From: an uncultured Kordia sp.
Lineage (GTDB): Bacteria > Bacteroidota > Bacteroidia > Flavobacteriales > Flavobacteriaceae
DNA length: 33,720 nucleotides
Assembly (NCBI RefSeq): GCF_947489565.1
Contig: NZ_CANLEA010000038.1
Location: 1-33,720, forward strand
Direction: 5' to 3'
In this document: positions 5,580 to 25,009 of the stretch, one piece after another
Numbering within the stretch: the first letter of the stretch is position 1
Layout: each line of letters begins with the position of its first letter
Translations under genes and position numbers: made by a program
Notes under the pieces: model-generated
Databases searched by the model: none
What the model saw: only the letters and a program-made list of their open reading frames with translations
What the model was told of the DNA's origin: nothing

Positions 5580-5635
5580 ATTTATAAATCTGAATATGCT
5601 TTTGTTTTATAACGTGTTGCATTGTAGTACTTTAG
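5580..5635 (+). promoter_or_regulatory. Promoter and ATTTATAAAT operator of the first array precursor
   Basis: ATTTATAAAT (5580-5589) lies 38 bp before a -7 box TACTTTAG (5628-5635), with TTTT (5605-5608) in the -33 place at N19. The predicted start is about 5639, giving a 21-base leader. The palindrome is centred near -55, as in four other small-peptide promoters in this window. Confidence 0.55.
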
Positions 5636-5659
5636 TTGTGAATCAAAAACGAATAGATT

Positions 5660-5869
5660 ATGAAAAAGCGAAAATTAGACAAGTTGTCGTTAAACAAGAA
5701 TTCAATTTCTGATTTAAATAAAGGAATTGTCAATGGAGGAGTATTTTCTATAGGATGCTCCGACGGTTGTACGCCTTTCCAAACGGCTTTTAATTGTACA
5801 AATGGTAATTGTACAGGCGATTGTGGTAATGGAAGTGGTCATATGGGCTGTCCATTTGACGATATTTAG
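5660..5869 (+). CDS. Class I lanthipeptide-like RiPP precursor, 69 aa
   Basis: The leader MKKRKLDKLSLNKNSISDL has the LxLxKxx(I/V)xxL motif of Bacteroidetes class I lanthipeptide precursors and ends at GG (residues 26-27). The 42-residue core has six Cys (33, 37, 46, 51, 55, 64) and many Ser/Thr and Gly. It includes two close NCT motifs (NCTNGNCTGDCGNG), which would allow several rings. It is the first of four tandem precursors on this strand. The gene has its own promoter with the shared ATTTATAAAT site and its own terminator, so it is probably transcribed alone. No maturation enzyme lies nearby. The precursor class is well supported by the leader; the product's structure and activity are unknown. 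Confidence 0.85.
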   Translation: MKKRKLDKLSLNKNSISDLNKGIVNGGVFSIGCSDGCTPFQTAFNCTNGNCTGDCGNGSGHMGCPFDDI

Positions 5870-5893
5870 TGTTTAAAGTTTTAATGTAAAGGC

Positions 5894-5939
5894 TGTTTAA
5901 AATTTCTAGTATTAGAAACTTTTAAGCAGCTTTTTTTAG
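5894..5939 (+). terminator. Terminator after the first array precursor
   Basis: GCTGTTTAAAA (from 5894) pairs with TTTTAAGCAGC (ending 5932), and TTTCTA pairs with TAGAAA inside. Seven Ts follow at 5933-5939. Confidence 0.85.
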
Positions 5940-5952
5940 TAAATTATTTTAT

Positions 5953-6037
5953 ACTCGAAATATATGAATTTCGACTCGTGATTTATAAATAGTTGACTAT
6001 GAGTGTTTTGATGTGATTTTCGACCTACCTAACTTAG
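5953..6037 (+). promoter_or_regulatory. Promoter and paired operator of the second array precursor
   Basis: TTTG (6007-6010), exactly 19 bp, then TAACTTAG (6030-6037) forms the promoter; the leader would be about 28 bases. Upstream, ACTCG and ATTTATAAAT (5981-5990) form a site, and a degenerate copy lies exactly 21 bp earlier (ACTCG at 5953, ATATATGAAT at 5960). The block from CGACTCGTG to the start codon is homologous to the one upstream of the precursor at 6957. Confidence 0.7.
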
Positions 6038-6068
6038 TAGAAGTATTAATCACATAAATATCACAATT

Positions 6069-6284
6069 ATGAAAAAAAAGAATTTAAAAAGTTTAGGATT
6101 AAACAAAAGTAGAGTGTCTAGTTTAATAGACTTACAATTAAAAGGTGGTGACACATCTTCTACATTTGGACGCCTTTCTTACAGAGGATGGACATGTCCT
6201 TACGATGCATCTGATGCATGTGGAGGCGGAACTGAGACATGTGGATTGACTTGTAACGGAGGTTCAGAATGTCATTGTCTGTAA
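6069..6284 (+). CDS. Class I lanthipeptide-like RiPP precursor, 71 aa
   Basis: The leader MKKKNLKSLGLNKSRVSSL matches LxLxKxx(I/V)xxL and ends at GG (26-27). The 44-residue core starts DTSSTFG and contains six Cys (43, 51, 58, 62, 68, 70), with Thr or Ser preceding several of them. The ending CHCL resembles other small thioether peptides. Its 5' region is a paralogue of that of the precursor at 6957, and both leaders continue with L-I-D-x-Q-L-(K/R)-GG, so the two genes are recent duplicates whose cores have diverged. It has a strong promoter and its own terminator. No LanB/LanC is in the window; in-trans modification is inferred. Confidence 0.85.
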   Translation: MKKKNLKSLGLNKSRVSSLIDLQLKGGDTSSTFGRLSYRGWTCPYDASDACGGGTETCGLTCNGGSECHCL

Positions 6285-6311
6285 TGTAGTTTCTTACCAA
6301 AAATTAATAAG

Positions 6312-6339
6312 CCTTTCCGTTTTTCGGAAAGGTTTTTTT
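6312..6339 (+). terminator. Terminator after the second array precursor
   Basis: CCTTTCCG (6312-6319) pairs perfectly with CGGAAAGG (6325-6332) around a short T loop. Seven Ts follow at 6333-6339. Confidence 0.9.
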
Positions 6340-6397
6340 ACGGTTTTACCTTACTTTTATTTGTGTTAAATGGTTTATTTTTAGGTAATTAACTTAA
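6338..6397 (+). promoter_or_regulatory. Weak dyad and candidate promoter of the third array precursor
   Basis: TTACGG, five bases, CCTTAC (6338-6354) is a degraded version of the TTACGG-N5-CCGTAA dyad. It overlaps the previous terminator's T run, so it could be chance. Possible -7 boxes are TATTTTTA (6376-6383) and TAACTTAA (6390-6397); neither has a clear -33 partner. This gene lacks the ATTTATAAAT site of its neighbours. Confidence 0.3.
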
Positions 6398-6409
6398 AAT
6401 TATTAAATC

Positions 6410-6622
6410 ATGAAAAAAAGAAATGTAACAAAATTAACATTGAAAAGAAATGTAGTTTCTAAGCTTGATGCTATAAATATCCATGGAGGAGGAAGTATGG
6501 CTTGCTCTGCAGGAGAATCATGCACAGGTCAGCAAACTTGTGGAAACTGTACCGTTGGTGGCAGTGGGACATTAGCAGAATGCGAAAAGAATACAGTATG
6601 GGGAATGTGCCCTAGACAATAA
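6410..6622 (+). CDS. Class I lanthipeptide-like RiPP precursor, 70 aa
   Basis: The leader MKKRNVTKLTLKRNVVSKL fits the LxLxKxx(I/V)xxL pattern, with K-R in the N-K position, and reaches GG at residues 26-27, the same place as in the other three array members. The 43-residue core has six Cys (32, 38, 44, 47, 58, 67) and many Ser/Thr and Gly (ESCTGQQTCGNCTVGGSG). It is followed by a perfect 14-bp hairpin and then by a decayed copy of the sppA 3' end. Its promoter region differs from the rest of the array. Class assignment is good; no processing gene is linked. Confidence 0.85.
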   Translation: MKKRNVTKLTLKRNVVSKLDAINIHGGGSMACSAGESCTGQQTCGNCTVGGSGTLAECEKNTVWGMCPRQ

Positions 6623-6630
6623 TACAACAA

Positions 6631-6661
6631 ACAAGCTCTTAAAATTGTTTTAAGAGCTTGT
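6631..6661 (+). terminator. Hairpin after the third array precursor
   Basis: ACAAGCTCTTAAAA (6631-6644) pairs perfectly with TTTTAAGAGCTTGT (6648-6661) around TTG. The following T run is short, so termination may be imperfect. Confidence 0.7.
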
Positions 6662-6668
6662 GTTTAAG

Positions 6669-6814
6669 TTAAATGTATGGTAAAAATAATTTCAGACACT
6701 CCATTTGTATAAGCTTCCTTATTTTCTTCGCTAAGCTATCATTTTTATCACCCAATTTTTTTCGTATATCGCTTCTTTGATTTTTAAATTTATCGATTCC
6801 CGATCCTTCAATAC
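6669..6814 (-). pseudogene. Decayed duplicate of the sppA 3' end
   Basis: Read on the minus strand, one frame gives LGDKNDSLAKKIRKLIQME followed by a stop at 6669. This aligns with the C-terminus of the intact SppA at 7231-8997 (LGDKNYQLLQRMKKLTQME...LLLPY). The segment before it (KDRESI...IKEAIYEK) matches SppA's KDLQSI...TKEKILQEE in another frame. The frames meet at a seven-base T run (6756-6762 on plus), so one base is missing, and about six residues are deleted. Nucleotide similarity is also visible, for example TTTTTATCACCCAATT in both. It lies 47 bp after a precursor stop, as real sppA lies 91 bp after the next precursor stop, so precursor and sppA tail were probably duplicated together. 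Confidence 0.75.
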
Positions 6815-6843
6815 TCTACTTTTGATTTAACTTTTCATTATGA

Positions 6844-6927
6844 ATCGTTATTTATAAATGACGACTCGTGATTTATAAATGATTGATTATAAGTTTTTTG
6901 AAGTGGTTTTTTTGAATGGTAAATTTG
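6844..6927 (+). promoter_or_regulatory. Promoter and double operator of the fourth array precursor
   Basis: TTTG (6897-6900), exactly 19 bp, then a perfect -7 box TAAATTTG (6920-6927) gives a 26-base leader. Two direct copies of ATTTATAAATGA lie at 6850-6861 and 6871-6882, exactly 21 bp apart. They are preceded by AATCGTT and ACTCGTG, so each half is a 17-base site. The proximal copy is centred near -55. Confidence 0.75.
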
Positions 6928-6956
6928 TTCAAGTATTAATTCAAAAAAATAGTATT

Positions 6957-7139
6957 ATGAAAAGAAAAAGTTTAAAAACATTGAAATTAAACAAGAGTAA
7001 GGTTTCTAATTTAATTGATGCTCAGTTAAGAGGAGGAATAAGTGGAAGCACAGAACTTACAGCTTTGGCATGTACATTACGATGTGGAGGAAATACGGGG
7101 CCAAAACCTTCAGGGAATCCAGATTGTGAGAAAAAATAA
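6957..7139 (+). CDS. Class I lanthipeptide-like RiPP precursor, 60 aa
   Basis: I chose the ATG at 6957 rather than an in-frame ATG at 6879, because it restores the leader MKRKSLKTLKLNKSKVSNL shared with its paralogues and because the promoter lies between the two. The GG is at residues 26-27. The 33-residue core has three Cys (39, 43, 57), Ser/Thr at 29, 31, 32, 35, 40, 47 and 52, and a Pro/Gly-rich end. It is closest to the precursor at 6069 in leader and promoter. The gene ends before a bidirectional terminator shared with sppA. Role in antagonism or signalling is unknown. Confidence 0.85.
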   Translation: MKRKSLKTLKLNKSKVSNLIDAQLRGGISGSTELTALACTLRCGGNTGPKPSGNPDCEKK

Positions 7140-7175
7140 GCTTTAGAAAATTTAATTTCTAATGTATTAAAAAGT

Positions 7176-7207
7176 AAAAGCCTTTCCATTTTCCAGGAAA
7201 GGCTTTT
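7176..7207. terminator. Bidirectional terminator between the last precursor and sppA
   Basis: AAAAGCCTTTCC (7176-7187) pairs perfectly with GGAAAGGCTTTT (7196-7207). T-rich tails follow on both strands, serving two convergent genes. Confidence 0.85.
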
Positions 7208-7230
7208 ATTGTGATTAATAACTAACAAAA

Positions 7231-8997
7231 TTATTTAATCTCAATTTCGTAGGGTAATAATAATTGCGGACCTTCCATTTGAGTGAGTTTCTTCATTCTT
7301 TGAAGCAATTGATAATTTTTATCACCCAATTCTTCTTGTAATATTTTTTCTTTGGTTTGAATATATCCGCCTGTATATTGATTCAAAATACTTTGTAAAT
7401 CTTTTTCATATACTGGCAGCTCCAAAATGTCATATGAAGAAATATTTGCTTCCGTTGCTGCTGCTTGTAGTGCCATGTCTAATCCGCCAATTTCATCTAC
7501 CAATCCTATGCCAACTGCATCATTTCCTGTCCAAACACGTCCTTGTGCAATTTCATCTACAGCGGCTTGTGTCATGCCACGTCCATCTGCTACACGTTGT
7601 GTAAATAAATCGTAAATATCTTCAATACCTTCTTTAATTAAAGCACGTTGTTCATCTGTCATCGGTTCAAAAACGCTGTATTGTACAGAATTCTTATTCG
7701 TTCCAACTTGCTCAGCATTGATGCCTAAATCTTCTGCCAATTGGTGCATGTTTGGAATCGTGCCAAAAACACCAATACTTCCTGTAATGGTATTAGGTTC
7801 TGCAAAAATTCTATCTGCATTACATGCAATATAATAACCGCCAGAAGCTGCTAAATTCCCCATAGAAACAATGACAGGTTTTACTTTTTTTGTCAATTCA
7901 ATTTCTCTCCAAATCAATTCACTTGCCAAAGCACTTCCTCCAGGAGAATCAATACGCAATACAATCGCTTTTACACTATCATCTTCTCGGGCTTCTTTTA
8001 GTGCTTCATTCATAACACCTTGCCCAATCATAGCTTCATCACCGTCTCCATATATGATTTGACCTTGCGCATAAATCACCGCGATTCTTTCAGTAGAACT
8101 ATCTGTAGTATATCGTTCGCCTACATGTCTGGCATATTCATAAATATTAATTCGATTGATCAATGTATTTTCTCCCATAGCAAGTTGAATTCCATCTTCG
8201 TACTCATCTTCATAAGCTATCTTGTCAATTAACTTAGCTTCCAAAGCAAGTTTTGCTGTACGTCCTGCCAATTCATCGGCTAACAGATTTAATTGATCTG
8301 TTGAAATTTTTCTACTAGCACTAATTTCTTTGCGCATTTCATCCCAAATTGATCGTAAAAACACAGAAATTTGCTCACGATTGGCGTCACTCATTTCTTG
8401 ACTAATATAGCCTTCTACAGCACTTTTATACTTTCCATGACGAATCACTTCCATTTTTACGCCATACTTTTCTTGAAAATCTTTATAATACATACGTTCC
8501 ATTGCCAGACCTTTAAAATCTATGAGTCCAGCAGGATTTAAATAAATGGTATCTGCAACAGAATTTAGGTAATAATCTTTTTGTGAATAGAAATCTCCGT
8601 ATGAAACTATAAACTTGCCAGATTCTTTAAAAGATAATAAGGCATCACGCAAAGCTTTGGTTTGTGCCATTCCAGCGCTAATCGAATTATTTTTGATAGA
8701 AATTCCTTTGATTTTTGGATCGTCTATCGCATGATTAATCGCATCAATAATATTAAACAATCCGTCATATTCTGGTGTGTTTGGGAAAAAAGGAACGCTG
8801 CTGTAATCAAATCGACCTGCGTAATCATCAATTGGTTGATACAAATCCAATTCTAACACTGTATTTTTCTTTACAACGACAAGGTTGTCAGCTGAATTTG
8901 CATTGATGAAAATCACCAAAAACAAGATTAAAAAACAAAGGGCAACAAAGATGGTCATTCCCACAATAGTGGAAAGTACTCGTTTAAAAAAATTCAT
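7231..8997 (-). CDS. sppA: Signal peptide peptidase SppA, 67-kDa type
   Basis: The 588-aa protein has one N-terminal membrane anchor (about residues 11-32) and two tandem peptidase S49 domains. The general-base Lys is K191 in GKYKSAVEG in the N-terminal domain. The nucleophile Ser is S385 in NLAASGGYYI in the C-terminal domain, the arrangement known for E. coli SppA (K209/S409). SppA degrades leftover signal peptides in the inner membrane. The length equals that of the long form. A perfect -7 box sits upstream. A decayed copy of its last 50 codons lies 400 bp downstream inside the precursor array. Identification is secure. Confidence 0.96.
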   Translation of the reverse strand: MNFFKRVLSTIVGMTIFVALCFLILFLVIFINANSADNLVVVKKNTVLELDLYQPIDDYAGRFDYSSVPFFPNTPEYDGLFNIIDAINHAIDDPKIKGISIKNNSISAGMAQTKALRDALLSFKESGKFIVSYGDFYSQKDYYLNSVADTIYLNPAGLIDFKGLAMERMYYKDFQEKYGVKMEVIRHGKYKSAVEGYISQEMSDANREQISVFLRSIWDEMRKEISASRKISTDQLNLLADELAGRTAKLALEAKLIDKIAYEDEYEDGIQLAMGENTLINRINIYEYARHVGERYTTDSSTERIAVIYAQGQIIYGDGDEAMIGQGVMNEALKEAREDDSVKAIVLRIDSPGGSALASELIWREIELTKKVKPVIVSMGNLAASGGYYIACNADRIFAEPNTITGSIGVFGTIPNMHQLAEDLGINAEQVGTNKNSVQYSVFEPMTDEQRALIKEGIEDIYDLFTQRVADGRGMTQAAVDEIAQGRVWTGNDAVGIGLVDEIGGLDMALQAAATEANISSYDILELPVYEKDLQSILNQYTGGYIQTKEKILQEELGDKNYQLLQRMKKLTQMEGPQLLLPYEIEIK

Positions 8998-9022
8998 AGC
9001 GTATGAGTTAAATGCTTTTTTG

Positions 9023-9053
9023 CAAAAATATCTATTAATTAACTAATTAGAAA
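9023..9053 (-). promoter_or_regulatory. sppA promoter
   Basis: On the minus strand TTTC (9053-9050), 19 bp, and a perfect TATTTTTG (9030-9023) form a Bacteroidetes-type promoter, with a leader of about 20 bases before the sppA ATG. Confidence 0.65.
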
Positions 9054-9172
9054 GTAAGTGTAGTTTTCTCTGTAAAAGTTACATTTTTTGTGAAATTAAA
9101 TCGAACTATTTTCTACAATCAAAATAAAAACACACTTTCGGTATTTTCACAATTCAATCTGTATATTTTGAC

Positions 9173-9180
9173 TATCTTTG
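9173..9180 (+). promoter_or_regulatory. -7 box of the folK fusion gene
   Basis: TATCTTTG is a perfect -7 box, 33 bp before the TTG start. A clear -33 TTTG at the usual spacing is not seen. Confidence 0.5.
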
Positions 9181-9213
9181 GCGCGGCTATTTTGGCTCTA
9201 CAAACGTATTTAA

Positions 9214-10347
9214 TTGCATCCAAACTTGTTACATACTACATACATCTCTATTGGAAGTAATGTTGGCGACAAACGCGCACACTTACAAAACGCAATTCAG
9301 AAACTTTCTGTCAAAGTTGGGCATGTCGTAAAAATTTCGCCAATATATAAAACGCCTTCATGGGGTTATGATGGCAATGACTTTTATAATGCGTGTTTGT
9401 GTGTTAAAACAGTATTGTCTCCTGCTGAAATGATGGCAGAGATCATAGAAATTGAAGTCTCTCTAGGTCGTATTCGAAGTCGTAAAAAAGGCTATCAAAA
9501 TCGTAGTATTGATATTGATATTATTTTTTATGAAGATATAGAGATGCGATCAGATTTGTTGGTATTGCCACATCCATTGGCACACGAACGAAAATTTGTC
9601 ATGCAACCGTTGTGTGATATTGCACCAAGTAAAATTCATCCAACTTACAAAAAGACGGTTTCGCAATTGAATGATGGAGTTCCTGCGCAAGGTATTGAAG
9701 TAAGCGAAGAAACTTTAGAATCACCAAATACGAATAAGAACTTTTCTCGATTTAATTATATTGCCATAGAAGGGAATATTGGAGCGGGAAAAACTTCGTT
9801 AGCAACTAAAATTGCGCAAGATTTTAATGGAAAACTGATTTTAGAACGTTTTGCAGACAATCCGTTTTTGCCAAAATTTTATGAAGATAACAGTCGCTAT
9901 GCGTTTCCGTTAGAAATGTCGTTTTTGGCAGATCGCTATCAGCAAATTTCAGACGATTTAGCACAATTGGATTTATTTAAAGATTTTATTGTATCTGATT
10001 ATGATGTAGTGAAATCCTTGATCTTTGCAAAAGTCACTCTGCAAGAAGAGGAATATAAGTTGTACCGAAAGTTATTTGATATCATGTACAAAGAAATTCC
10101 AAAGCCAGATTTGTATGTATATCTCTATCAAAATACAGAACGTTTGCTGCGAAATATCAAAAAACGCGGACGTGATTATGAACAAAAAATTCCTTCTGAA
10201 TACTTAGATAAAATCAACAACGGATATTTAGAATTCATCCGAACTCACAAAGACTTAAACGTAAAAATCATCGATGTTTCTGATTTAGATTTTGTAGCGA
10301 ATGCAAACGATTATCAGAAAATTGTTTCGGAGATTAATGAAATGTAG
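9214..10347 (+). CDS. folK: FolK-deoxynucleoside kinase fusion
   Basis: The N-terminal half (about residues 8-140) is 6-hydroxymethyl-7,8-dihydropterin pyrophosphokinase, with YISIGSNVGD, PSWGYDGNDFYN and NRSIDIDIIFY; it makes the pyrophosphorylated pterin used in folate synthesis. The C-terminal half (about 180-377) is a deoxynucleoside kinase with P-loop GNIGAGKTS (about 187-195), ERFADNPFLP and FLADRYQQI. Such fusions are known in Bacteroidetes. Translation must begin at a TTG: an in-frame TAA lies directly before 9214 and no ATG precedes the FolK core. A second TTG at 9226 is the alternative. The gene is monocistronic and precedes a repeat island. Domain calls are secure; the kinase substrate is not. 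Confidence 0.93.
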   Translation: MHPNLLHTTYISIGSNVGDKRAHLQNAIQKLSVKVGHVVKISPIYKTPSWGYDGNDFYNACLCVKTVLSPAEMMAEIIEIEVSLGRIRSRKKGYQNRSIDIDIIFYEDIEMRSDLLVLPHPLAHERKFVMQPLCDIAPSKIHPTYKKTVSQLNDGVPAQGIEVSEETLESPNTNKNFSRFNYIAIEGNIGAGKTSLATKIAQDFNGKLILERFADNPFLPKFYEDNSRYAFPLEMSFLADRYQQISDDLAQLDLFKDFIVSDYDVVKSLIFAKVTLQEEEYKLYRKLFDIMYKEIPKPDLYVYLYQNTERLLRNIKKRGRDYEQKIPSEYLDKINNGYLEFIRTHKDLNVKIIDVSDLDFVANANDYQKIVSEINEM

Positions 10348-10654
10348 ACTACTTAGATTTTTAGATTGTTAGACGCGCTTGCTTTTAGACTTGTTCCCGC
10401 GTAGGCGGGAATCTTTTAGACCGCTTTCGCTGTTAGATACTAGATCGCTTCGCTACTAGATTTTAGACATGTTAGATATGTCATTGCGAGAAGCATAGCG
10501 ACGTGGCAATCTGTTTCTTAAGTAACAGCTTACTTCAACAAGTTCAGTGCAAGTACTTCGCCATATTTCCTCGTAATGACGTATTGAATAATTCTAACAA
10601 TCTAAAGCGATAGCGTGTCTAACAGGCAAAGCCGAATCTAAGTGCAAAGCAAGT
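10348..10654. repeat. Composite island of interspersed repeats
   Basis: The 307 bp between the folK fusion and the methyltransferase hold no gene. They contain repeated TTAGAC/TTAGAT words, the palindrome TTCCCGC-GTAG-GCGGGAA (about 10394-10411), ACTAGAT copies around GCTTCGC (10438-10462), a bounded element at 10480-10580, and a copy of the GCGAAGC/TCTAAC repeat also seen at 664-750. The stop of the minus-strand gene at 10655 abuts the island. Confidence 0.75.
10480..10580. repeat. 101-bp element with GTCATTGCGAG inverted ends
   Basis: GTCATTGCGAG (10480-10490) and CTCGTAATGAC (10570-10580) are inverted copies with one mismatch. The left end continues AAGCATAGCGACGTGGCAAT, which resembles a short intergenic repeat known from many bacterial genomes. 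No coding sequence lies inside. It looks like a small non-autonomous, MITE-like element. Confidence 0.6.
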
Positions 10655-11185
10655 CTAAAAACGAAGTTTTCTAAAAACATCCCAAAGCACAACACCAGCG
10701 CTCACAGAAATATTCAGCGAATGTTTGGTGCCAAATTGCGGAATTTCAATCACATAATCACTTGCAGAAACCACTTCTTGTTGCACGCCTTTTACTTCAT
10801 TTCCAAAAACCAATGCATACGTATTGGATTTCTCAGGAGCAAACTCATGCAGCATCGTAGCATTCTCAGCTTGTTCAATAGAAGCTATTTTTACCTTGTT
10901 TCCTTGTAATTCTTTTACAAGCGCTAAAGTATCTTCACGATATTCCCAAGCCACGGATTCTGTAGAACCCAAAGCTGTTCTGTGAATGTCTTTATGTGGT
11001 GGTTTTGCGGTAATTCCACACAAATAAATCTTTTCAATCAAAAAAGCATCACTCGTTCTAAAAACGGAACCAATATTGTTTAAACTGCGAATATTATCAA
11101 GGATGACAATAATACTTGTTTTTTCTGACGATTTAAATTCGTCCACACTCAATCTGTTTAGTTCACTATTTTTGAGTTTTCTCAT
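10655..11185 (-). CDS. TrmH/SpoU-family RNA 2'-O-methyltransferase
   Basis: The 176-aa protein is a minimal SPOUT methyltransferase domain. Motif 1 is NIGSVFRTSDAF (about residues 37-48), motif 2 is VFGNEVKGV (about 125-133), and motif 3 is IPQFGTKHSLNISVSAG (about 147-163), which forms the knotted S-adenosylmethionine site. Family members methylate the 2'-OH of riboses in tRNA or rRNA. There is no added RNA-binding domain, so the target cannot be assigned. The best promoter lies about 220 bp upstream (TATTTTTG at 11411-11404 on the minus strand), so the mRNA would carry the 166-bp hairpin element in its leader. Confidence 0.88.
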   Translation of the reverse strand: MRKLKNSELNRLSVDEFKSSEKTSIIVILDNIRSLNNIGSVFRTSDAFLIEKIYLCGITAKPPHKDIHRTALGSTESVAWEYREDTLALVKELQGNKVKIASIEQAENATMLHEFAPEKSNTYALVFGNEVKGVQQEVVSASDYVIEIPQFGTKHSLNISVSAGVVLWDVFRKLRF

Positions 11186-11225
11186 AGATACTTCGTAAGT
11201 TTTCCTTGAATTTATTTAAATTCGC

Positions 11226-11391
11226 AATGAACTCATTTGGACTTTTAGGATTTAAGTGAAAATTAGGAATTTTAAGTTCTGTTGAAGTATTTTTTTAGTT
11301 ACATAGCAGCGCTACGGAACTCAAAAAATACAAAAGCAGGATTTAAAAGAACAATTTTTTAGCAAATATGAAAAGTTTAAATGAGTTCAAT
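11226..11391. repeat. 166-bp imperfect inverted repeat (hairpin element)
   Basis: The outer arms AATGAACTCATTTGGACTTT (from 11226) and AAAGTTTAAATGAGTTCAAT (to 11391) are inverted copies with about three mismatches. Inside, GTATTTTTTTAGTT pairs with AACTCAAAAAATAC, and the tip is TAGC-AGC-GCTA. The intervening segments also pair loosely, so the whole element can fold into one long stem. No coding sequence is seen. It resembles a MITE. Confidence 0.7.
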
Positions 11392-11403
11392 TTATGATTT
11401 CTG

Positions 11404-11411
11404 CAAAAATA
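11404..11411 (-). promoter_or_regulatory. -7 box facing the TrmH-family gene
   Basis: TATTTTTG on the minus strand is a perfect -7 box. A transcript from it would read the whole hairpin element before the methyltransferase gene. The -33 region is weak. Confidence 0.4.
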
Positions 11412-11430
11412 ACATTAAAAATAGCAAACA

Positions 11431-14040: not shown

Positions 14041-14089
14041 CTGATTACGAGAAGATTAAAAAATAATTTATTCTTTTTCTTGAAAACGT

Positions 14090-14119: not shown

Positions 14120-14164
14120 CATCCGCAATACAGTAATAGTGTTGCACGTTCATTTAAATAAATT

Positions 14165-14237: not shown

Positions 14238-14252
14238 CAATATAATATCCAC

Positions 14253-14336: not shown

Positions 14337-14342
14337 CTAAAG

Positions 14343-16522: not shown

Positions 16523-17316
16523 TAATTAAAAATCCATTCGTCCATAAATAGCCAAGCTTTCAAGCCTTTTCCAGCATGCCAATCGGGTAATTTTTGAACG
16601 TTTTTTACGTGTACGATTAAAGTGTTAATTTCTTTTTCTATTGGAATTTTTACGTCGTCTAGTTTGATAATTTCTTGCAAAGTCAAAGCTGGAATTTTCA
16701 AATTGATAGAATCTTTATCGTTAAAATACAATGTAATTTCTTCTGGTGGAAAAATCCACGATTTTGGATCGATTAAATAGCCAATTGTTAAACTTTTGAT
16801 ATAGGTTTTTTTCGGGAATGAAACCGTCGCTTTTGCAATAGTATCAAAACCTGTCCATTCCACATCTCTGAATTTTAAGGAAGCTTTTTTATTATTAATT
16901 AAGGTCGTTTCTCCTTGTCCTTTGTATGTGTCGCTTGCCTGAGTTTGCCAAGTTATTTTATCTGGAATAAATCCTTTTTTATACAATCTAATTTCAGTTG
17001 CCTCGCTCGGTTTCCAATCGGGATGATAACCTCTAAAATTGAAAGTTCCTGCTTCTTCAGCGATGACAGTTGTTTGTACTTTTGAAGATGATTCCATTCC
17101 CTTTTTTCCATCAACTTCATAGAATACAGATAAATTTTCCATGCGAATTTCAGGCTTCATCGTTACAAAAGAATCAATTATTGTACTCGAAACCGCAATT
17201 CTAGGTTTTGCCAATTGAATTTCTCCTTCTTGTACGTAGTTTGTGGTTTCTGTTTTCTTTTCAGTACAACTAAAAAAGATCAAACACGCAATTAAGATTC
17301 CCATAAAGTTTTTCAT
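16522..17316 (-). CDS. Putative lipoprotein with FN3-associated and discoidin-like domains
   Basis: I set the start at the ATG at 17316 rather than 42 bp earlier. It overlaps the previous stop as ATGA and gives a proper lipoprotein signal, MKNFMGILIACLIFFSC, with Cys-17 as the likely lipidated residue. The 264-aa product then has a chitobiase C-terminal/FN3-associated-like segment (about 45-125) and a discoidin-like domain. Its end (LPDWH...AWLFMDEW) parallels the end of the 707-aa cytochrome protein (LPKWH...AWIFVDEI), so the two share a duplicated module. It is probably surface- or periplasm-facing and may bind a carbohydrate. No catalytic motif is seen. Confidence 0.75.
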   Translation of the reverse strand: MKNFMGILIACLIFFSCTEKKTETTNYVQEGEIQLAKPRIAVSSTIIDSFVTMKPEIRMENLSVFYEVDGKKGMESSSKVQTTVIAEEAGTFNFRGYHPDWKPSEATEIRLYKKGFIPDKITWQTQASDTYKGQGETTLINNKKASLKFRDVEWTGFDTIAKATVSFPKKTYIKSLTIGYLIDPKSWIFPPEEITLYFNDKDSINLKIPALTLQEIIKLDDVKIPIEKEINTLIVHVKNVQKLPDWHAGKGLKAWLFMDEWIFN

Positions 17317-18356: not shown

Positions 18357-18357
18357 A

Positions 18358-19815
18358 TTAGCTTAGTAAATCGTGAACAACATGACCAGAAACGTCTGTG
18401 AGTCTAAAACGTCTTCCTTGATGTTTATACGTAAATTTTGTGTGATCAACGCCCATGAGATGCATCATTGTGGCTTGTAAATCATGCACGTGTACAGGAT
18501 CTTTGACAATATTATAACCAAAATCGTCCGTTTCTCCATAGGTGAATCCGGGTTTTACGCCGCCGCCAGCCATAAACATGGTAAAGCATTTTGGGTGATG
18601 ATCGCGTCCGTAATTGGTTTCTGTAAGCGTTCCTTGACTGTAATTGGTACGACCGAATTCCCCGCCCCAAACTACGAGTGTATCTTCTAACAATCCGCGT
18701 TGTTTTAAGTCTAAAATTAAGGCGGCAGTAGCCTGATCAATATCTTTGGCTTGCTTTTCTATCTGCGAAGGTAAATTTTCATGCTGATCCCAGCCCATAT
18801 GATATAATTGAATAAAACGCACATCTTGTTCTGCAAGTCGTCTTGCTAATAAGCAGTTTGCTGCATACGTTCCCGGAATCGTTGCGTCAGAACCATACAT
18901 TTGTATGATGTGATCAGGTTCTTCTTCAATATTCATTGTGGTTGGAACCGAAGTTTGCATTCGATATGCCATTTCGTATTGTCCGATGCGGCTGTTGATT
19001 TCTGGATCGCCAAATTCACGTTCTTGTTTTTCATTGAGTTCGCTTAAATGATCGAGCATTTTTCTACGTTCGGCACGCGTCATTCCTTCAGGATCTTTTA
19101 AGTATAATACAGGATCTTTCCCTGAACGGAATTGTACACCTTGATGTAAAGAACTTAAAAAACCATTTCCCCAGAGTCTGGAATATAACGGTTGCGATAA
19201 CGGTCTTCCTGTTCCGCGAGAAAGCAGTACTGTAAATGTGGGTAAATTGTTGTTTAAACTTCCCAAACCATAACTCATCCAAGAGCCAATACTTGGTCGT
19301 CCTGCTTGTTGCGAACCCGTTTGGAAAAAGGTAATGGCAGGATCATGATTGATGGCTTCTGTGTGCATAGATTTTACAAAGCACAATTCGTCTACAATTT
19401 TGGCAGTGTACGGCATGAGTTCACTTACCCAAGCGCGTGATTCGCCATATTGATCAAACTTGAAATTACTTCCCACTAGCGGAAATGTATCTTGTCCAGA
19501 CGTCATTCCTGTTAAGCGTTGTCCTTTTCGAACAGAATCGGGTAAATCTTGTCCGCGCAATTTGTCTAATAAAGGTTTGTAATCAAACAATTCCAATTGT
19601 GATGGTCCGCCACTTTGAAATAAATAAATGACACGTTTTGCTTTGGGTGCAAAGTGTGGTAAATTCATTCCTTTCAAAGGAGAATCGGCAGCTTCAACAA
19701 TAGCAGAAAACGGATCAAGCATAGACGCAGCAGCAATTCCGCCAATTCCTAAACCTAGTTTTTTTAAAAACTGTCGTCGTGTATTGTTTAAAAAATGTTT
19801 GTGAACTTCTTCCAT
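18358..19815 (-). CDS. DUF1501 protein, Tat-exported
   Basis: The 485-aa protein carries a Tat signal (TRRQFLKKLGLGIGGIAAAS, residues 13-32) and the DUF1501 fold, an alkaline-phosphatase/sulfatase superfamily relative. Marker segments are VIYLFQSGGPSQLELFDYKP, the HTEAINHDPAITFFQTGS region, GWDQHENLP, VVWGGEFGRTNYSQ and GRDHHPKCFTMFMAGGG. The Asp, His and Glu residues in the last three suggest a metal site. DUF1501 genes are habitually next to DUF1549/DUF1553 genes in Planctomycetes and some Bacteroidetes. The reaction is not established. It is the second gene in the operon, with gaps of 1-2 bp on both sides. Confidence 0.9.
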   Translation of the reverse strand: MEEVHKHFLNNTRRQFLKKLGLGIGGIAAASMLDPFSAIVEAADSPLKGMNLPHFAPKAKRVIYLFQSGGPSQLELFDYKPLLDKLRGQDLPDSVRKGQRLTGMTSGQDTFPLVGSNFKFDQYGESRAWVSELMPYTAKIVDELCFVKSMHTEAINHDPAITFFQTGSQQAGRPSIGSWMSYGLGSLNNNLPTFTVLLSRGTGRPLSQPLYSRLWGNGFLSSLHQGVQFRSGKDPVLYLKDPEGMTRAERRKMLDHLSELNEKQEREFGDPEINSRIGQYEMAYRMQTSVPTTMNIEEEPDHIIQMYGSDATIPGTYAANCLLARRLAEQDVRFIQLYHMGWDQHENLPSQIEKQAKDIDQATAALILDLKQRGLLEDTLVVWGGEFGRTNYSQGTLTETNYGRDHHPKCFTMFMAGGGVKPGFTYGETDDFGYNIVKDPVHVHDLQATMMHLMGVDHTKFTYKHQGRRFRLTDVSGHVVHDLLS

Positions 19816-19817
19816 AA

Positions 19818-22172
19818 TTATCCTTTTACAATTGCTTCATCCAAATTGAAAATTAGACTTGTGAGAACGCCAAACGCGTATATTTTTTCTTTAGAAATTT
19901 CGTTGGTAATACTATTTTCTGCGATATTTATTTTTTTAGTGACATCATAATTTGATTCGGCTTCTCTTAGAAAAGTCAACAAATTTTCCACTTCGGTTGC
20001 ATCAGGTTTTCGCGAAGTAATTTTTCTAAAAATAGTTTCAATGCGATTTTCATCTGTTAAGCTTTCTTCTTGTAACACTTGAACCGCTAAGGTATTGGCT
20101 GCTTCTATCAGTTGTGGATCATTTAGCATGACCAATGCTTGCAAGGGCGTACTTGTTTTTTGTCTTTCAACAGTGCAATAATCGCGTGTAGCCGCATCAA
20201 AAGTCATCATTGCTGGTGGCGGAACGGTTCGTTTCCAAAAGGTATATAAGCTTCTTCGGTATAAATTTTCACCAGAATCCATGATGTATTTTGTCAATCC
20301 TTGTCCAGAAGTTGTCTCTGCCCATAATCCTTCTGGTTGATAAGGTTTTACACTTGGCCCACCAACTTTTTCAACCAACAATCCGCTTACGGCAAGTGCA
20401 TTGTCGCGAATCATTTCTGCAGTCAATTTATCACGTGAACTTCTTGCCAACCAAACATTATCAGGATCAATTTCTAACAAAGCATCACTTACTTTAGTCG
20501 TTTGCTGATACGTATTTGATAACACCATACGTTTGATCATTTTTTTGGTGTCCCAACCTTCTTCACGGTACGTAATTGCTAGCCAATCCAACAATTTAGG
20601 ATGTGAAGGCAAGGCACCTTGATTTCCAAAATCGGAACTTGATGCTACGATTCCTTTTCCGAAAATTTGCTGCCATAATCTGTTGACAGCAACACGTGAA
20701 GTTAGTGTGTTCTTTTCATCAAACAACCAATTTGCCAAGCCAAGTCTATTTTGCTCATAGTTTTCTGTAAAAGGCAACACTGCTTTTGGCGTTGTAAAAC
20801 TCACTTCATCACCATGTGCATCATACGCTCCACGTTTGAGTACAAAAGTTTTTCGTTTTGGCGCATCGTCTTTCATGACCATGAGTTGTACTTCTTTGAT
20901 AGAATCTGGCATATTGATGAAATTCAGTGTTTCATCAATTTCTTTTTGTGTAATTTTTATATTGGGTTTAGGAATTTCGCCATAATCCATGCGTCCTTTT
21001 TCATTGACTTTGTTGAAAAAAGCATAAAAGCCAAAGTATTCTTTTTGCGAAATAGGATCGTATTTATGATCGTGACATTGCGCACATTCCATCGTCAATC
21101 CAAGTAAAGATTTTGAAACTGTATTTGTGCGATCTAAAACGTATTCTACGCGATATTCTTCATCAATAACACCGCCTTCTTGAGTTATTTTATGATTTCG
21201 ATTGAAGCCTGTTGCTAGGATTTGTTCCAAAGTTGCATTTGGTAATAAATCACCTGCTAATTGCCACTTTACAAATTCGTCATATGGTATATTCCTATTG
21301 AACGCACTAATTACCCAATCGCGCCAAGGCCACATCGTACGTTCCAAATCATCTTGATATCCGTGTGTGTCAGAATAGCGAGCAATATCGAGCCAATTTG
21401 TGGCAAAATGTTCGCCAAAACGTGTTGAGTTCAACAAACGATCTATCACTTTTTCGTATGCATTTTCGTCTTCGTCTTGTATAAAAGCATCAATTTCAGC
21501 TAGACTTGGTGGTAATCCTGTTAAATCAAAATACACACGTCTAATTAGCTTTTCTTTACTGGCTTTTTGCGATGGCGATATTCCTTTTTGAGAGAGTTTT
21601 GTTAGAATAAAATTGTCAATTTCATTGGCAATCAAACTATCATTCTTTACTGTGGGAACTTCACTTTTTTCAGGCATAACAAATGCCCAATGATCTTTCC
21701 AAACGGCACCTTGTGCAATCCATTTGGTTAATATTTTCTTTTCATATGTGCTTAGCGAAAGATTGGAATCTTCTGGCGGCATTAATTTGATAGGATTTTC
21801 CGTGTTGATGCGTTCTACAAGCGCACTTGTAATGGTATCACCCGGAACAATAGCAAAGTGATTTTTTTGTTCATTCAGTGCGGCAAAAGCTCCTTCTTTG
21901 GTGTCTAATCGTAAATTAGCTTCACGTGTACCATCATCGGGACCGTGACATAAATAACAACGATCTGAAAGAATAGGCTTTACATGAAAAATATAGTCAA
22001 TAGTTTCAGGAACTTTATCAGCATTATTAATGTCAGTAGTAGTTACTGTGTCAATTGCTACATATGTATTTCCGTTTGATCTATTGAAATATTTGTATGC
22101 TAGTACGGCTAAAAATGGCACTAAAAAATAGCATACTAACAGAAAAGGATTGGTTTTCTTTTTCGTATTCAA
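19818..22172 (-). CDS. PSCyt1-DUF1549-DUF1553 cytochrome protein
   Basis: The 784-aa protein has one N-terminal membrane anchor (about 10-27). A planctomycete cytochrome C domain follows, with heme motif CYLCH (72-76) and LMPPEDS as the likely Met ligand, then DUF1549 (from about 180, FILTKLSQKGI...RRVYFDLTGLPP) and DUF1553 (about 480-740, TSRVAVNRLWQQIFGKGIV, RQKTSTPLQALVMLND). A second CxxCH (CAQCH in MECAQCHDHKYDPIS) lies near residue 365. The start is TTG at 22172: an in-frame TAA sits 18 bp upstream and there is no ATG before the anchor. It leads the five-gene operon and faces a palindrome in the divergent promoter region. An electron-transfer role is likely; the substrate is unknown. 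Confidence 0.9.
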   Translation of the reverse strand: MNTKKKTNPFLLVCYFLVPFLAVLAYKYFNRSNGNTYVAIDTVTTTDINNADKVPETIDYIFHVKPILSDRCYLCHGPDDGTREANLRLDTKEGAFAALNEQKNHFAIVPGDTITSALVERINTENPIKLMPPEDSNLSLSTYEKKILTKWIAQGAVWKDHWAFVMPEKSEVPTVKNDSLIANEIDNFILTKLSQKGISPSQKASKEKLIRRVYFDLTGLPPSLAEIDAFIQDEDENAYEKVIDRLLNSTRFGEHFATNWLDIARYSDTHGYQDDLERTMWPWRDWVISAFNRNIPYDEFVKWQLAGDLLPNATLEQILATGFNRNHKITQEGGVIDEEYRVEYVLDRTNTVSKSLLGLTMECAQCHDHKYDPISQKEYFGFYAFFNKVNEKGRMDYGEIPKPNIKITQKEIDETLNFINMPDSIKEVQLMVMKDDAPKRKTFVLKRGAYDAHGDEVSFTTPKAVLPFTENYEQNRLGLANWLFDEKNTLTSRVAVNRLWQQIFGKGIVASSSDFGNQGALPSHPKLLDWLAITYREEGWDTKKMIKRMVLSNTYQQTTKVSDALLEIDPDNVWLARSSRDKLTAEMIRDNALAVSGLLVEKVGGPSVKPYQPEGLWAETTSGQGLTKYIMDSGENLYRRSLYTFWKRTVPPPAMMTFDAATRDYCTVERQKTSTPLQALVMLNDPQLIEAANTLAVQVLQEESLTDENRIETIFRKITSRKPDATEVENLLTFLREAESNYDVTKKINIAENSITNEISKEKIYAFGVLTSLIFNLDEAIVKG

Positions 22173-22206
22173 AAGTAGGTTGGTTTGTTAGCTAAATTTT
22201 CTTTGT

Positions 22207-22226
22207 TTAACTGGTCAACCAATTAA
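22207..22226. promoter_or_regulatory. Palindromic operator between divergent operon and regulator gene
   Basis: TTAA-C-TGGT-CA-ACCA-A-TTAA is symmetric at 16 of 20 positions. The TGGT-N2-ACCA core resembles sites of GntR/FadR-type regulators such as UxuR. It lies 35 bp before the operon's TTG start and about 155 bp before the TPR/AraC gene. The bound protein is not known. Confidence 0.5.
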
Positions 22227-22380
22227 ACTTTCGTAAGATACTAATAACCAATTTATTTTTAAAAAAATTAACATCTGTTAGTTGGATTAATACGCCATTT
22301 AGCGCTGTTATTTTTTTCTAAAACGAAAAAATTGTGATTGTAAATTAATTTTCTGAATAAAACATAGTACTTTTAATCAT

Positions 22381-24132
22381 ATGAAGCGACTGTATTTTCC
22401 CTTTATTTTTTCCCTTTTCTCCTTTTACATACATGCACAAGATCAACAACAAGTAGTGTTGGAAATGGACTCATTGCAGAGTTTTTCTGCGGATTCCTTA
22501 AAGTCACTAGCTGTTTCCAGTCGATATAAGAATCCGCTGCGAGCAAAAAGCTATGCTTTGGCATATTATACCAGAGCAAAAAGTCAAAATGATATTCAAA
22601 ATAGATATAATGCAGCTTATTTGAATGCAGAAATTTATAATGTGCTAGGAGAAAAAGATAGCGCCCATTTTTTTGTAGATGAATCTATGCAGATTGCATT
22701 GAAAGCGAACAAAGAAGAAGATTACTATAATAGTTTGCGTTTAAAAGGAGGTATTTGCTTTAGTTATGACGATTATGCAAATGCTATTTTACATTATACG
22801 CAAGTTTATAAATACTTTGAAGAAAGAAATGATATCGTTAGACTGGCAAAAATTAGGCATAATATTGCATTAGTTGAAAATCAAATTGGTCGACGAAAAC
22901 AGGCATTGATGAAGGTAAAAGAAAACCTTCGTTTGTATGATGAAGGAATTCTTGAGAAAGAACCTAAAATGGCAGAATATTTAAATACACTATTGAATTT
23001 AAGCAATATTTATACAACCATTGCAGATGATTTTACGAATGATAGATTGCAGTATTTGGACTCAGCAACTACATACAGTGCTTTAGGATTGCACAAGAGT
23101 TTAGAAGCAAGTGATTTAGAAATTCACAGTATTTTTCTAGCTATACAAGGAATTATTCATCAAAAAAAAGGGGAATTGTCCAAAGCAGCCGTCAATTTCA
23201 GTGCAGCTGAAAAACTAATACATACACTCGGATTGTACAATCAGCTATCGATCGTCTATTTGCACAAAGGGAAAAACTATTTTTTGCAAAATAATTTTGA
23301 TGATGCATTGAAATATTTATTGAAAACAGATTCCATAATCACTAAAGATGATACCTATTCTCCGCATCTTCAAGAAACATATATTTTATTGGCAACCGTA
23401 TATGAAAAGAAAGGAGACATAAAAAAGTCTTTAAAGTACTTTAAAATCTTTGAGGAAAAGGATACTGAGAACGATATTCTTATTCGTCAAGTATCTGAAA
23501 ATCTTTATAAAAAATATGATATTGTCACCTTTAAAAATAAAATAGAATCACTTACAGATGCTACAAAAACAGCACATTTTAAATCAAAAATATTAATTTA
23601 TGTCTGTGTGTTTTTAGGAATATTTACGATACTAGGTTTTTGGTATTATAAAAATCGTGAAAAAACGTTTAAGAATCGTTTTGATGCAGTTTTAAACGAA
23701 CTAAAGGATTTGGAAAAAATACAAAAAGACAGCGAAGAAAAAACCTCTCAAGCATACAAAATTACAGATGAGAACATTCAAAAAATCTTGGACGGTTTGG
23801 AAAAGTTTGAAAAGAAAGAATTGTTTTTACAAAAGAAATGTACGCTCAATTATGTTGCCAAAAAAGTGAATACCAACAGCACGTATTTATCAAAAACATT
23901 ACAATCACACAAACAGAAAAAATTTGTACAGTACATCACAGATTTGCGTTTGAATTATGCGTTAACACGTTTAAAAAATGACACTCGATTTAGGACCTAT
24001 GACATTAAGTCGATAGCTTCTGAACTTGGATTTAATACAGCAGAATCGTTCTCAAAAGCTTTTAAAAAACGGACAGGTATATATCCTTCGTTTTATATCA
24101 AGAATCTCAATAAAATCAAGGATGAAGCTTAG
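22381..24132 (+). CDS. Membrane-bound TPR / AraC-type regulator
   Basis: The 583-aa protein has an N-terminal signal peptide (MKRLYFPFIFSLFSFYIHAQ) and a periplasmic run of tetratricopeptide-like helices (about 60-390). One membrane segment follows (about 403-422, ILIYVCVFLGIFTILGFWYY), then a short coiled coil and a C-terminal AraC-type DNA-binding domain (about 487-580, with LNYVAKKVNTNSTYLSKTL and IKSIASELGFNTAESFSKAF, the two helix-turn-helix units). This one-protein sensor type is common in Flavobacteria: periplasmic repeats sense a signal or partner, and the cytoplasmic end binds DNA. It is divergent from the cytochrome operon and 99 bp upstream of a lanthipeptide-like precursor, so either may be its target. 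Domain order is clear; the targets are inference. Confidence 0.9.
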   Translation: MKRLYFPFIFSLFSFYIHAQDQQQVVLEMDSLQSFSADSLKSLAVSSRYKNPLRAKSYALAYYTRAKSQNDIQNRYNAAYLNAEIYNVLGEKDSAHFFVDESMQIALKANKEEDYYNSLRLKGGICFSYDDYANAILHYTQVYKYFEERNDIVRLAKIRHNIALVENQIGRRKQALMKVKENLRLYDEGILEKEPKMAEYLNTLLNLSNIYTTIADDFTNDRLQYLDSATTYSALGLHKSLEASDLEIHSIFLAIQGIIHQKKGELSKAAVNFSAAEKLIHTLGLYNQLSIVYLHKGKNYFLQNNFDDALKYLLKTDSIITKDDTYSPHLQETYILLATVYEKKGDIKKSLKYFKIFEEKDTENDILIRQVSENLYKKYDIVTFKNKIESLTDATKTAHFKSKILIYVCVFLGIFTILGFWYYKNREKTFKNRFDAVLNELKDLEKIQKDSEEKTSQAYKITDENIQKILDGLEKFEKKELFLQKKCTLNYVAKKVNTNSTYLSKTLQSHKQKKFVQYITDLRLNYALTRLKNDTRFRTYDIKSIASELGFNTAESFSKAFKKRTGIYPSFYIKNLNKIKDEA

Positions 24133-24145
24133 ATTTATTGGTCGT

Positions 24146-24202
24146 ATTTACATAAATACGACTGTTTCTTCTTGGGAAGATTTTTTTTCAAGATTAACTT
24201 TA
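24146..24202 (+). promoter_or_regulatory. Promoter and dyad of the 77-aa precursor
   Basis: A perfect 22-bp dyad, GTCGTATTTA-CA-TAAATACGAC (24141-24162), includes ATTTA-CA-TAAAT at 24146-24157. TTGG (24172-24175), 19 bp and TAACTTTA (24195-24202) form a promoter; the leader is about 26 bases. The dyad centre is near -55, as in the array promoters. It could also act as a weak terminator for the regulator gene. Confidence 0.55.
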
Positions 24203-24231
24203 GCAGCATAAACTTTTTATTACTATTTACA

Positions 24232-24465
24232 ATGAGAAAAAACAGAAAATTAAATCTAAGAAAACTTAGTATTGCTAGACTAGATATGAGTCTTGTAACA
24301 AGAGGTGTTAAAGGAGGAACTGACTTGGGTACAAATGATGTCAATTGTCAAACTAATGAGGTTAACTGTCAGACTTCGGTAAAAACGAGACCTGAATTTA
24401 CCGATCCGAATGGTCCAAATTTATGTGAACCAACTTATACATATCTTGTAGGTCCTTGTATTTAA
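24232..24465 (+). CDS. Class I lanthipeptide-like RiPP precursor, 77 aa
   Basis: The start at 24232 gives the leader MRKNRKLNLRKLSIARLDMS, which fits LxLxKxx(I/V)xxL; an upstream in-frame ATG at 24172 lies within the promoter. GG is at residues 28-29. The 48-residue core contains a tandem duplication, NDVNCQT-NEVNCQT, then a Pro/Asn-rich stretch and an ending of LVGPCI. There are four Cys (39, 46, 65, 76). It is the longest and most distinct precursor in the window. It lies directly after the TPR/AraC regulator gene, has a promoter dyad like the array genes and is followed by a strong terminator. No modification enzyme is adjacent. Confidence 0.8.
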   Translation: MRKNRKLNLRKLSIARLDMSLVTRGVKGGTDLGTNDVNCQTNEVNCQTSVKTRPEFTDPNGPNLCEPTYTYLVGPCI

Positions 24466-24487
24466 ATGCGCTACTTTTAATGTTAAG

Positions 24488-24522
24488 AATCTCCAAGGAT
24501 TACGGTTTTTGGAGATTTTTTT
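24488..24522 (+). terminator. Terminator after the 77-aa precursor
   Basis: AATCTCCAA (24488-24496) pairs perfectly with TTGGAGATT (24509-24517), with a T run to 24522. Confidence 0.9.
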
Positions 24523-24604
24523 ATTTTTTTTACTTTTTTCAATAAAATGTAAAGCATTGTAAATCAGACTATTGCGTATTTTTCAAATTGAAAACCTACT
24601 ATAA

Positions 24605-24671
24605 TTACGGTAAAACCGTAACAGAAGTAATGTTTTATCGTATCCACCTCACGAGATATAGTTTAATTTTG
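24605..24671 (+). promoter_or_regulatory. TTACGG-N5-CCGTAA dyad and promoter of a candidate small RNA
   Basis: A perfect dyad, TTACGG-TAAAA-CCGTAA (24605-24621), lies 42 bp before a perfect -7 box TAATTTTG (24664-24671). No convincing -33 box is seen. The dyad equals the one at 1757-1773. Confidence 0.5.
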
Positions 24672-24674
24672 TTA

Positions 24675-24768
24675 AAAACATATTGAGGTTTAGGGGAATC
24701 TCATTATAATAGTATTATTCTATTAGATAAAAGGGAGATCATGCTTGTGATTACTCCCTTTTTTTTTT
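24675..24768 (+). ncRNA. Candidate small RNA, about 94 nt
   Basis: A perfect -7 box ends four bases before 24675. An intrinsic terminator, AAAAGGGAG (24729-24737) with CTCCCTTTT (24755-24763) and eight Ts, ends at 24768. Two smaller hairpins, TGAG...CTCA and TAATAG-TATTATT-CTATTA, lie between. There is no coding frame beyond a few codons. A promoter and terminator with no gene between them suggest a small regulatory RNA. I do not recognise its family. Confidence 0.5.
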
Positions 24769-24953
24769 AGTGTTGCTGAGGAAACTTAGAGAAATATAAA
24801 AGTTAGTTATGTATTAAATCGAGAAATTAGGGGGTCTCATTTAGTAGTGAAAATAACTTCCATTAACCTAAAAAGGGATTTCCCAAACTTTCGACTCTTC
24901 CAAACAATTCAGCAGTATTTATTTTCAAAAATAGTTCCAAAAAGGCTGCGTGA

Positions 24954-25009
24954 ATTTATAAATATCACGATACTTTTTTATTTAGAATAAATTAAAATAA
25001 CTACATTTG
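24954..25009 (+). promoter_or_regulatory. Promoter and ATTTATAAAT operator of the 53-aa peptide gene
   Basis: CGTGA-ATTTATAAAT-A-TCACG (24949-24969) is an extended dyad with ATTTATAAAT at 24954-24963. A perfect -7 box TACATTTG (25002-25009) follows after 38 bp, giving a 26-base leader. The spacing equals that of the lanthipeptide-like promoters. Confidence 0.6.

Follow-up and report, generated by a model that had tools for sequence, protein, structure and literature searches.

Palindromes upstream of lanthipeptide-like precursor genes as candidate operators of paralogous TPR-AraC regulators in Kordia

A stretch of DNA from an uncultured Kordia sp. (assembly GCF_947489565.1, contig NZ_CANLEA010000038.1; 33,720 nucleotides, analysed whole and called the window below) carries a short AT-rich palindrome at a fixed distance before five small-peptide genes, which raises the question of what protein would recognise it and whether a single regulator could account for all five. 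A first-pass annotation proposed that it could, with one operator bound by a class-I-type activator of a small-peptide regulon. Here, the palindromes are interpreted as being, with good probability, the operators of paralogous one-component regulators that combine a tetratricopeptide repeat (TPR) sensor with an AraC-type helix-turn-helix (HTH) domain. These TPR-AraC proteins would probably be activators, each having its own operator and its own lanthipeptide targets.

The five palindromes were found where the first-pass annotation had placed them, on the forward (+) strand, as are all window features below unless indicated. They end at 5589, 5990, 6880, 24157 and 24963, and the respective -7 boxes begin at 5628, 6030, 6920, 24195 and 25002, leaving 38, 39, 39, 37 and 38 bp between them. 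With the -7 box taken at -12 to -5, as given for Flavobacterium psychrophilum (PMC9723704), the palindrome centres lie at about -56 (-55.5 to -56.5), close to the -55 originally given. Two of the -7 boxes, TACTTTAG and TAACTTAG, are imperfect. The exact 10-mer is present in five copies in the window against 0.42 expected, a number reached in none of 100 shuffles; with one mismatch allowed there are 9 copies against 8.9 expected, which is no excess. Two further sites were absent from the first-pass list, a 10-mer copy at 6850-6859 and the variant CTCGAAATATATGAATTTCGAC at 5954-5975, which precede the sites at 6871 and 5981, respectively, by 21 bp. The resulting tandems (5954-5975/5981 and 6844-6865/6871) have a spacing of exactly 21 bp. 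The five sites are not mutually independent, as 5981 and 6871 belong to paralogous promoters.

A gene for a TPR-AraC regulator lies in the window at 22381..24132. Its product exceeds the Pfam cut-offs for HTH_18 (57.3 bits; cut-off 33.6) and TPR_12 (36.1 bits). In the AlphaFold2 model (mean pLDDT 77.3, pTM 0.53), predicted helices of a TPR superhelix span residues 37-378 and are followed by a long helix with a hydrophobic stretch (381-447) and by the C-terminal HTH helices (463-578). An N-terminal signal-like helix and a putative transmembrane helix were judged by eye from the sequence. The closest named relatives of this AraC-type gene are from Kordia. Foldseek gave eukaryotic peptide-binding TPR proteins (LGN/Pins) as the best matches and also listed, in a long series of TPR proteins, NprR (5dbk, E 3.7e-5) and a Rap-Phr complex (6t46, E 4.6e-5); TPR matches are unspecific.

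The 6.42-Mb genome includes 98 HTH_18 matches, among them a TPR-AraC group of about 500-630 amino acids (aa); 53 were taken by open reading frame (ORF) length and 46 TPR-AraC genes were kept. In 43 of the 46, a precursor-like ORF follows on the same strand about 75-150 bp past the stop codon, and 27 of these 43 gaps contain a palindrome with a score of at least 8. Among relatives, a precursor was found within 220 bp in 79 of 86 loci by a loose rule; this set includes at least six regulators twice and, among the 79, one locus (L177) that proved spurious on inspection. Five loci were skipped, four with a longer neighbouring ORF (read separately) and one short. A palindrome with a score of at least 8 occurs in 53 of the 79 gaps, compared with 5.3% in mononucleotide shuffles of the same gaps. 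All ten other Kordia genomes have TPR-AraC matches, at least 15-34 each (E <= 1e-40; best 34 scored per genome), and six of 29 genomes outside the genus have 1-3 at the same threshold. A precursor-like ORF lies 101 bp downstream of such a gene in one of the latter (G020), another was read by eye in the DNA of G026, and no precursor-like ORF was seen downstream of the TPR-AraC genes of G022 (L176) and G028 (L173). At a further locus of the Kordia genome (L039; C2:240790, 241069, 242191), the TPR-AraC gene precedes exported-looking proteins with in-phase ATTTATAAAT sites rather than a precursor. LuxR-type (GerE) regulators, with 29 genome matches, were set aside as binders without further comparison, as it is TPR-AraC genes that adjoin precursors.

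The window regulator conforms to this arrangement. The operator candidate GTCGTATTTACATAAATACGAC (24141..24162, centre 24151.5) starts 8 bp past its stop codon and 43.5 bp, from the centre, before the -7 box TAACTTTA (24195..24202); three of four orthologous loci retain it, as does one paralogue. Directly 3' of the regulator is a 77-aa lanthipeptide-like precursor (24232..24465) with the leader KLNLRKLSIARL...VKGG and a weak match to the leader profile NF038153 (12.6 bits; cut-off 22). Orthologous leaders joined to differing cores are found in L157-L161. Site 24141 probably belongs to the window's own regulator.

The fixed distance was found to generalise, whereas the bare 10-mer is only modestly more frequent genome-wide than its reversed control (103 versus 71). 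By itself the bare 10-mer is weak evidence, and it was dropped as a regulon marker. The ATTTATAAAT sites listed for the genome come mostly from regions picked around precursors and are a biased sample, with 16 sites away from precursors left out. Phase was measured on 75 distinct regulator-linked promoters from the own genome and relatives, chosen for a palindrome score of at least 8. In 18 cases TAnnTTT[GA] begins at a distance of 43.5 bp from the palindrome centre, against 0.26 in shuffles, and TAnnTT occurs 42-45.5 bp from the centre in 37 of the 75 (shuffled mean 7.0, maximum 13 in 50 shuffles); about half of the promoters have no in-phase box. At -100 to -70 from the precursor ATG, arms pairing at 8 of 8 positions are enriched (13 versus 2.2). 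A fixed site upstream of the -33 element, as expected of a class-I-type activator, is present, and its position suggests activation, which is plausible on that ground.

A single operator for a single regulator is not what the sequences of the palindromes indicate. These are 22-23 bp long and share an AT-rich core, often TTTATAAA and hence ATTTATAAAT, with differing outer bases (GTCGTATTTACATAAATACGAC, GTCGTTATTTATAAATCACGAC, CGTGATATTTATAAATACCACT, ACTCAAATTTATAAATTTGAGC, CCCTATTTTAAAGAAAATAGGG, CCTTTAATTCGATAATTAAAGG and others). The window sites represent at least three operator types resembling those beside different TPR-AraC paralogues: GTCGTnATTTATAAATnACGAC-like at 5954/5981 and 6844/6871, GTCGTATTTAnnTAAATACGAC at 24141 beside its own regulator gene, and a TTCA/CTCAA-type at 5574. 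Genome-wide, the extended GTCGT-type palindrome was counted 10 times versus 1. The five to six outer bases would confer regulator specificity.

This was examined in 91 regulators of the genus, pre-selected for a palindrome score of at least 7. Pairs with an HTH distance below 0.1 have an outer operator distance of 0.21 and a spacer distance of 0.51; at HTH distances of 0.5-0.6 the values are 0.71 and 0.68. In partial Mantel tests, HTH and operator remain correlated when sensor and spacer are controlled for (r = 0.27, 0 of 2000 permutations), and HTH and spacer are uncorrelated once sensor and operator are controlled for (r = -0.03, 1657 of 2000). As judged by these comparisons, the palindrome sequence tracks the HTH more closely than it does the flanking DNA. 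In addition, a copy of the operator matching at 19 or more of 22 bases lies upstream of the regulator's own gene in 8 of 71 cases versus 1 of 207 mismatched pairs, with little excess at 17 of 22 (21 of 71 versus 49 of 207). These own-gene copies are regarded as independent support for the matching of regulators with operators. The script misplaced some operators, for example that of C3_341404, for which the own-gene copy (22/22) marks the true site.

The same operator types, single or in 21-bp tandem, also precede a minority of the dispersed precursors, including three in the window that are probably driven in trans. The operator TTTCAAATTTATAAATCTGAAT (5574..5595, centre 5584.5) shares 18 of 22 bases with that of regulator C1_311733, is near-identical in G002 and would be bound by a CTCAA-type regulator; it precedes a 69-aa lanthipeptide-like precursor (5660..5869). 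The second promoter has an upstream operator CTCGAAATATATGAATTTCGAC (5954..5975, centre 5964.5), 21 bp from a downstream one, CTCGTGATTTATAAATAGTTGA (5975..5996, centre 5985.5), which pairs at 5 of 11 positions, is half-site-like and lies 44.5 bp before the -7 box TAACTTAG (6030..6037). Its gene encodes a 71-aa lanthipeptide-like precursor (6069..6284; leader LGLNKSRVSSL...LKGG) with an orthologue at the matching place in G004. The third has the upstream operator ATCGTTATTTATAAATGACGAC (6844..6865, centre 6854.5), with 2 mismatches to TCGTGATTTATAAATCACGA, and the downstream operator CTCGTGATTTATAAATGATTGA (6865..6886, centre 6875.5; 6 of 11 pairs), 44.5 bp before the -7 box TAAATTTG (6920..6927) of a 60-aa lanthipeptide-like precursor gene (6957..7139). 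The GTCGT-type sites of the two tandems would be read by a regulator of the C9_23387 clade.

In nine Kordia genomes, 13 GTCGT-type promoters of the interval between sppA and Vut_1 retain both sites at 21 bp in front of differing peptides. All 13 have TTTTG at -33, and 12 also have the -7 box at 44.5 bp. As these promoters were picked for CGACTCG or CGAGTCG, conservation of those letters is partly due to selection. Such footprints back the fixed palindrome at 5580, 5981, 6871 and 24146, the four lanthipeptide-precursor sites of the first-pass annotation. The interval itself (window 5514-7231; L264-L273) holds from 0 to 4 precursors depending on the genome, its promoters being kept and its peptides changing. 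In G006, 1500 of the 2367 bases of the interval were read; the G007 interval (176 bp) has no precursor, and that of G010 lacks the GTCGT type. Compared across the genomes, the interval is a hot spot of peptide turnover.

Matches in trans were sought in the 131 promoters that do not adjoin a regulator, those of 130 precursors and of gene 25039, with decoys made by permuting the outer bases. At 18 or more of 22 bases, 14 of the 131 match the operator of some regulator (mean of 60 decoys 2.0, maximum 7); at 16 of 22 the counts are 32 and 16.

The precursors were collected with the leader profile NF038153 (lant_leader_L1a, cut-off 22 bits), which gave at least 150 genome matches, 43 of the 150 listed being over the cut-off, some only together with neighbours. 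The best 150 of 289 first-look candidates were scored; the window's 6069, 6410 and 6957 fell outside that set and were added by hand. Removal of 10 matches (no ATG or no fetched DNA) and one ORF below 40 aa left 139 ORFs, and with the regulator-adjacent genes there are at least 173 distinct precursors. Among the four window precursors only 5660 is over the cut-off, which it passes together with its neighbours (21.3 bits by itself); 24232 and also 6069 (14.7 bits) and 6957 (17.2 bits) are below. The LxLxKx5L leader occurs in strict form in 93 of the 173 and in relaxed form in 165, a GG/GA/AG end in 169, and Cys plus Ser/Thr in the core of 172. Leaders next to regulators mostly differ in form, the strict motif occurring in 11 of 43. 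The genome has one Lant_dehydr_N (LanB) match and six LANC_like matches, including two weak ones; none adjoins the window's precursor genes. At another locus (L113, C2:165432-171574), a TPR-AraC gene and two precursors are found within a few kb of the sole LanB match and one LanC. From their sequences, the window precursors are lanthipeptide-like; lanthipeptide products are marked by thioether rings.

The leader motif, the Cys and Ser/Thr in the core and the LanB and LanC genes in the genome are features shared with class I lanthipeptides of Bacteroidetes, for which PMC7268733 gives the leader LxLxKx5L, often GG-ended. Most Kordia precursors differ from these in lying far from the single LanB match. 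Because that survey considered precursors no more than seven genes away from a LanC, it would have missed the dispersed ones. Prochlorosins, described there as having one LanM and many dispersed precursors, are similar in their conserved leaders, variable cores and few enzymes, whereas Kordia has class I-type enzymes and dedicated paralogous regulators and belongs to another phylum.

The fifth gene (25039..25200) is not a convincing member of the regulon and was rejected as one. It is matched in all 11 Kordia genomes searched and encodes a conserved 53-aa Lys/Cys-rich protein (CCKKYKKGKGKRCKRCPC) that is not a lanthipeptide precursor and gave no family above cut-off in profile searches. The palindrome before it, GCGTGAATTTATAAATATCACG (24948..24969), matches the operator of C2_216650 at 17 of 22 bases; its core is kept upstream of one of ten orthologues only, and a different promoter element, TTATTTAGAwTAAAT, is kept upstream of the orthologues. 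Site 24954 is probably incidental or lineage-specific.

Several observations weigh against assigning the palindromes to TPR-AraC proteins. About one third of the regulator-precursor gaps have no strong palindrome, and in K. jejudonensis (L160) the HTH is nearly identical to that of the window regulator and the operator is absent. The 91 regulators owe their place in the test to the palindrome score itself. In the own genome, plain Mantel correlations of the HTH are r = 0.25 with the operator and r = 0.20 with the spacer, and that with the operator given the sensor is 0.16, reached by 60 of 5000 permutations; the larger set and partial tests were used because the spacer correlation was nearly as high. 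In the larger set some correlation between sensor and operator also persists (r = 0.15, 0 of 2000). At 15 of 22 bases the trans matches show no clear excess (49 versus 44 in decoys); matches exceed decoys only at high identity, which allows the assignment of no more than a minority of the dispersed precursors and leaves most without a matching operator. Gene 6957 was not assigned to the GTCGT type by operator matching, its best match being off register, and the promoter-proximal sites at 5981 and 6871 are half-palindromes only.

The explanations that compete with it fare worse. One class-I-type activator with a single ATTTATAAAT operator for all five genes would explain the identical core and spacing at all five sites; it is very improbable, as the outer bases vary and correspond to operators found next to different paralogues, the excess over control is much clearer for the extended GTCGT-type palindrome than for the bare core, and the fifth site is poorly kept. 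It is less improbable, and still unlikely, that the same TPR-AraC proteins bind but repress, or both repress and activate, until released by a signal. The 21-bp tandems fit repression equally, as do the copies of the operator that precede some regulator genes, and conserved promoters with both TTTTG (-33) and TAnnTTTG need not be weak. The sites, however, lie upstream of the -33 and -7 elements and not over them, and AraC-type proteins mostly activate.

That the palindromes are structural, as terminators of the upstream gene or hairpins in RNA or DNA, is scarcely credible. Terminator-like hairpins with T runs do occur in some precursor upstream regions (e.g. C7:61062 and C3:96770), and symmetric changes could reflect pairing, but the operators are AT-rich, mostly lack a T run, stand in fixed phase to the -7 box, recur at promoters without an upstream regulator gene and track the HTH. 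Chance palindromes in AT-rich or UP-element-like sequence have a nearly negligible probability and are already disfavoured for the four lanthipeptide sites by the shuffle controls (10-mer, arms, gap palindromes and phase) and the 13-promoter footprint; the AT-rich genome and the lack of excess of the one-mismatch 10-mer speak for them, and the fifth site is probably such a case.

The TPR-AraC reading would involve a large paralogous family of membrane-type one-component regulators with a signal peptide, TPR sensor, transmembrane helix and AraC-type HTH. After each regulator gene would come a class I lanthipeptide-like precursor, and the palindrome in the gap between the two would have its centre some 56 bp ahead of the transcription start. 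The TPR domain would perceive a signal outside the inner membrane and couple it to the HTH, with activation from -56. As to the signal, the two halves of the sensor covary with the peptide core when HTH, leader, linker and spacer are controlled for (partial r = 0.29 and 0.30; 0/500 each; n = 106), compared with 0.05 for a linker of similar length, 0.08 (1/500) for the spacer and -0.07 for the HTH. Such a pattern would be expected of a receptor fitted to the peptide encoded beside it; rate differences between regions could lie behind part of this covariation. A more tentative extension, given somewhat less than an even chance, is that each Kordia genome has dozens of parallel insulated circuits, in which the TPR domain would read the core of the neighbouring lanthipeptide and the HTH a private operator driving that peptide and a few dispersed ones. 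Under this extension, sensor-core and HTH-operator would be two matched specificity codes that diversify together by duplication.

AraC sites are usually direct repeats. Like AraC/XylS proteins, the Kordia regulators have a C-terminal DNA-binding domain of two HTHs (HTH_18) over the Pfam cut-off and sites just upstream of the promoter; unlike them, they are membrane-type with an N-terminal TPR sensor, occur as dozens of paralogues each with a peptide gene, and have a 22-23-bp palindrome as the site. RRNPP regulators (Rap, NprR) share the TPR fold and act in the cytoplasm, with an XRE-type HTH and an imported peptide. The Kordia proteins fall outside that family, having an AraC-type HTH and an N-terminal signal-like helix that predicts a TPR domain outside the membrane, and by analogy they possibly work like RRNPP regulators. 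In a literature search without subscription papers, no paper was listed as describing the TPR-AraC/lanthipeptide arrangement, which may all the same be in print already.

Another palindrome, TACGGTnnnACCGTA, stands about 66-74 bp from the ATG of 7 of the 139 precursors (0.24 expected). It is found before the window precursor 1548-1700 (- strand), and a degenerate copy (6339-6353) before precursor 6410-6622. At 24606-24620 there is a perfect TACGGTAAAACCGTA, with TAATTTTG at 24664 and, about 70 bases on, a GGGAG...CTCCC hairpin and a T run; the segment 24606-24763 may be a small RNA that is controlled in a similar way.

With about 46 regulator-operator-peptide sets in this genome alone, and more than 200 across the genus (summed per-genome counts), Kordia would offer a natural library from which the rules of AraC-type recognition may be read. 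It would also provide a handle on when and why marine flavobacteria make many lanthipeptide-like peptides, whether as signals, weapons or both.

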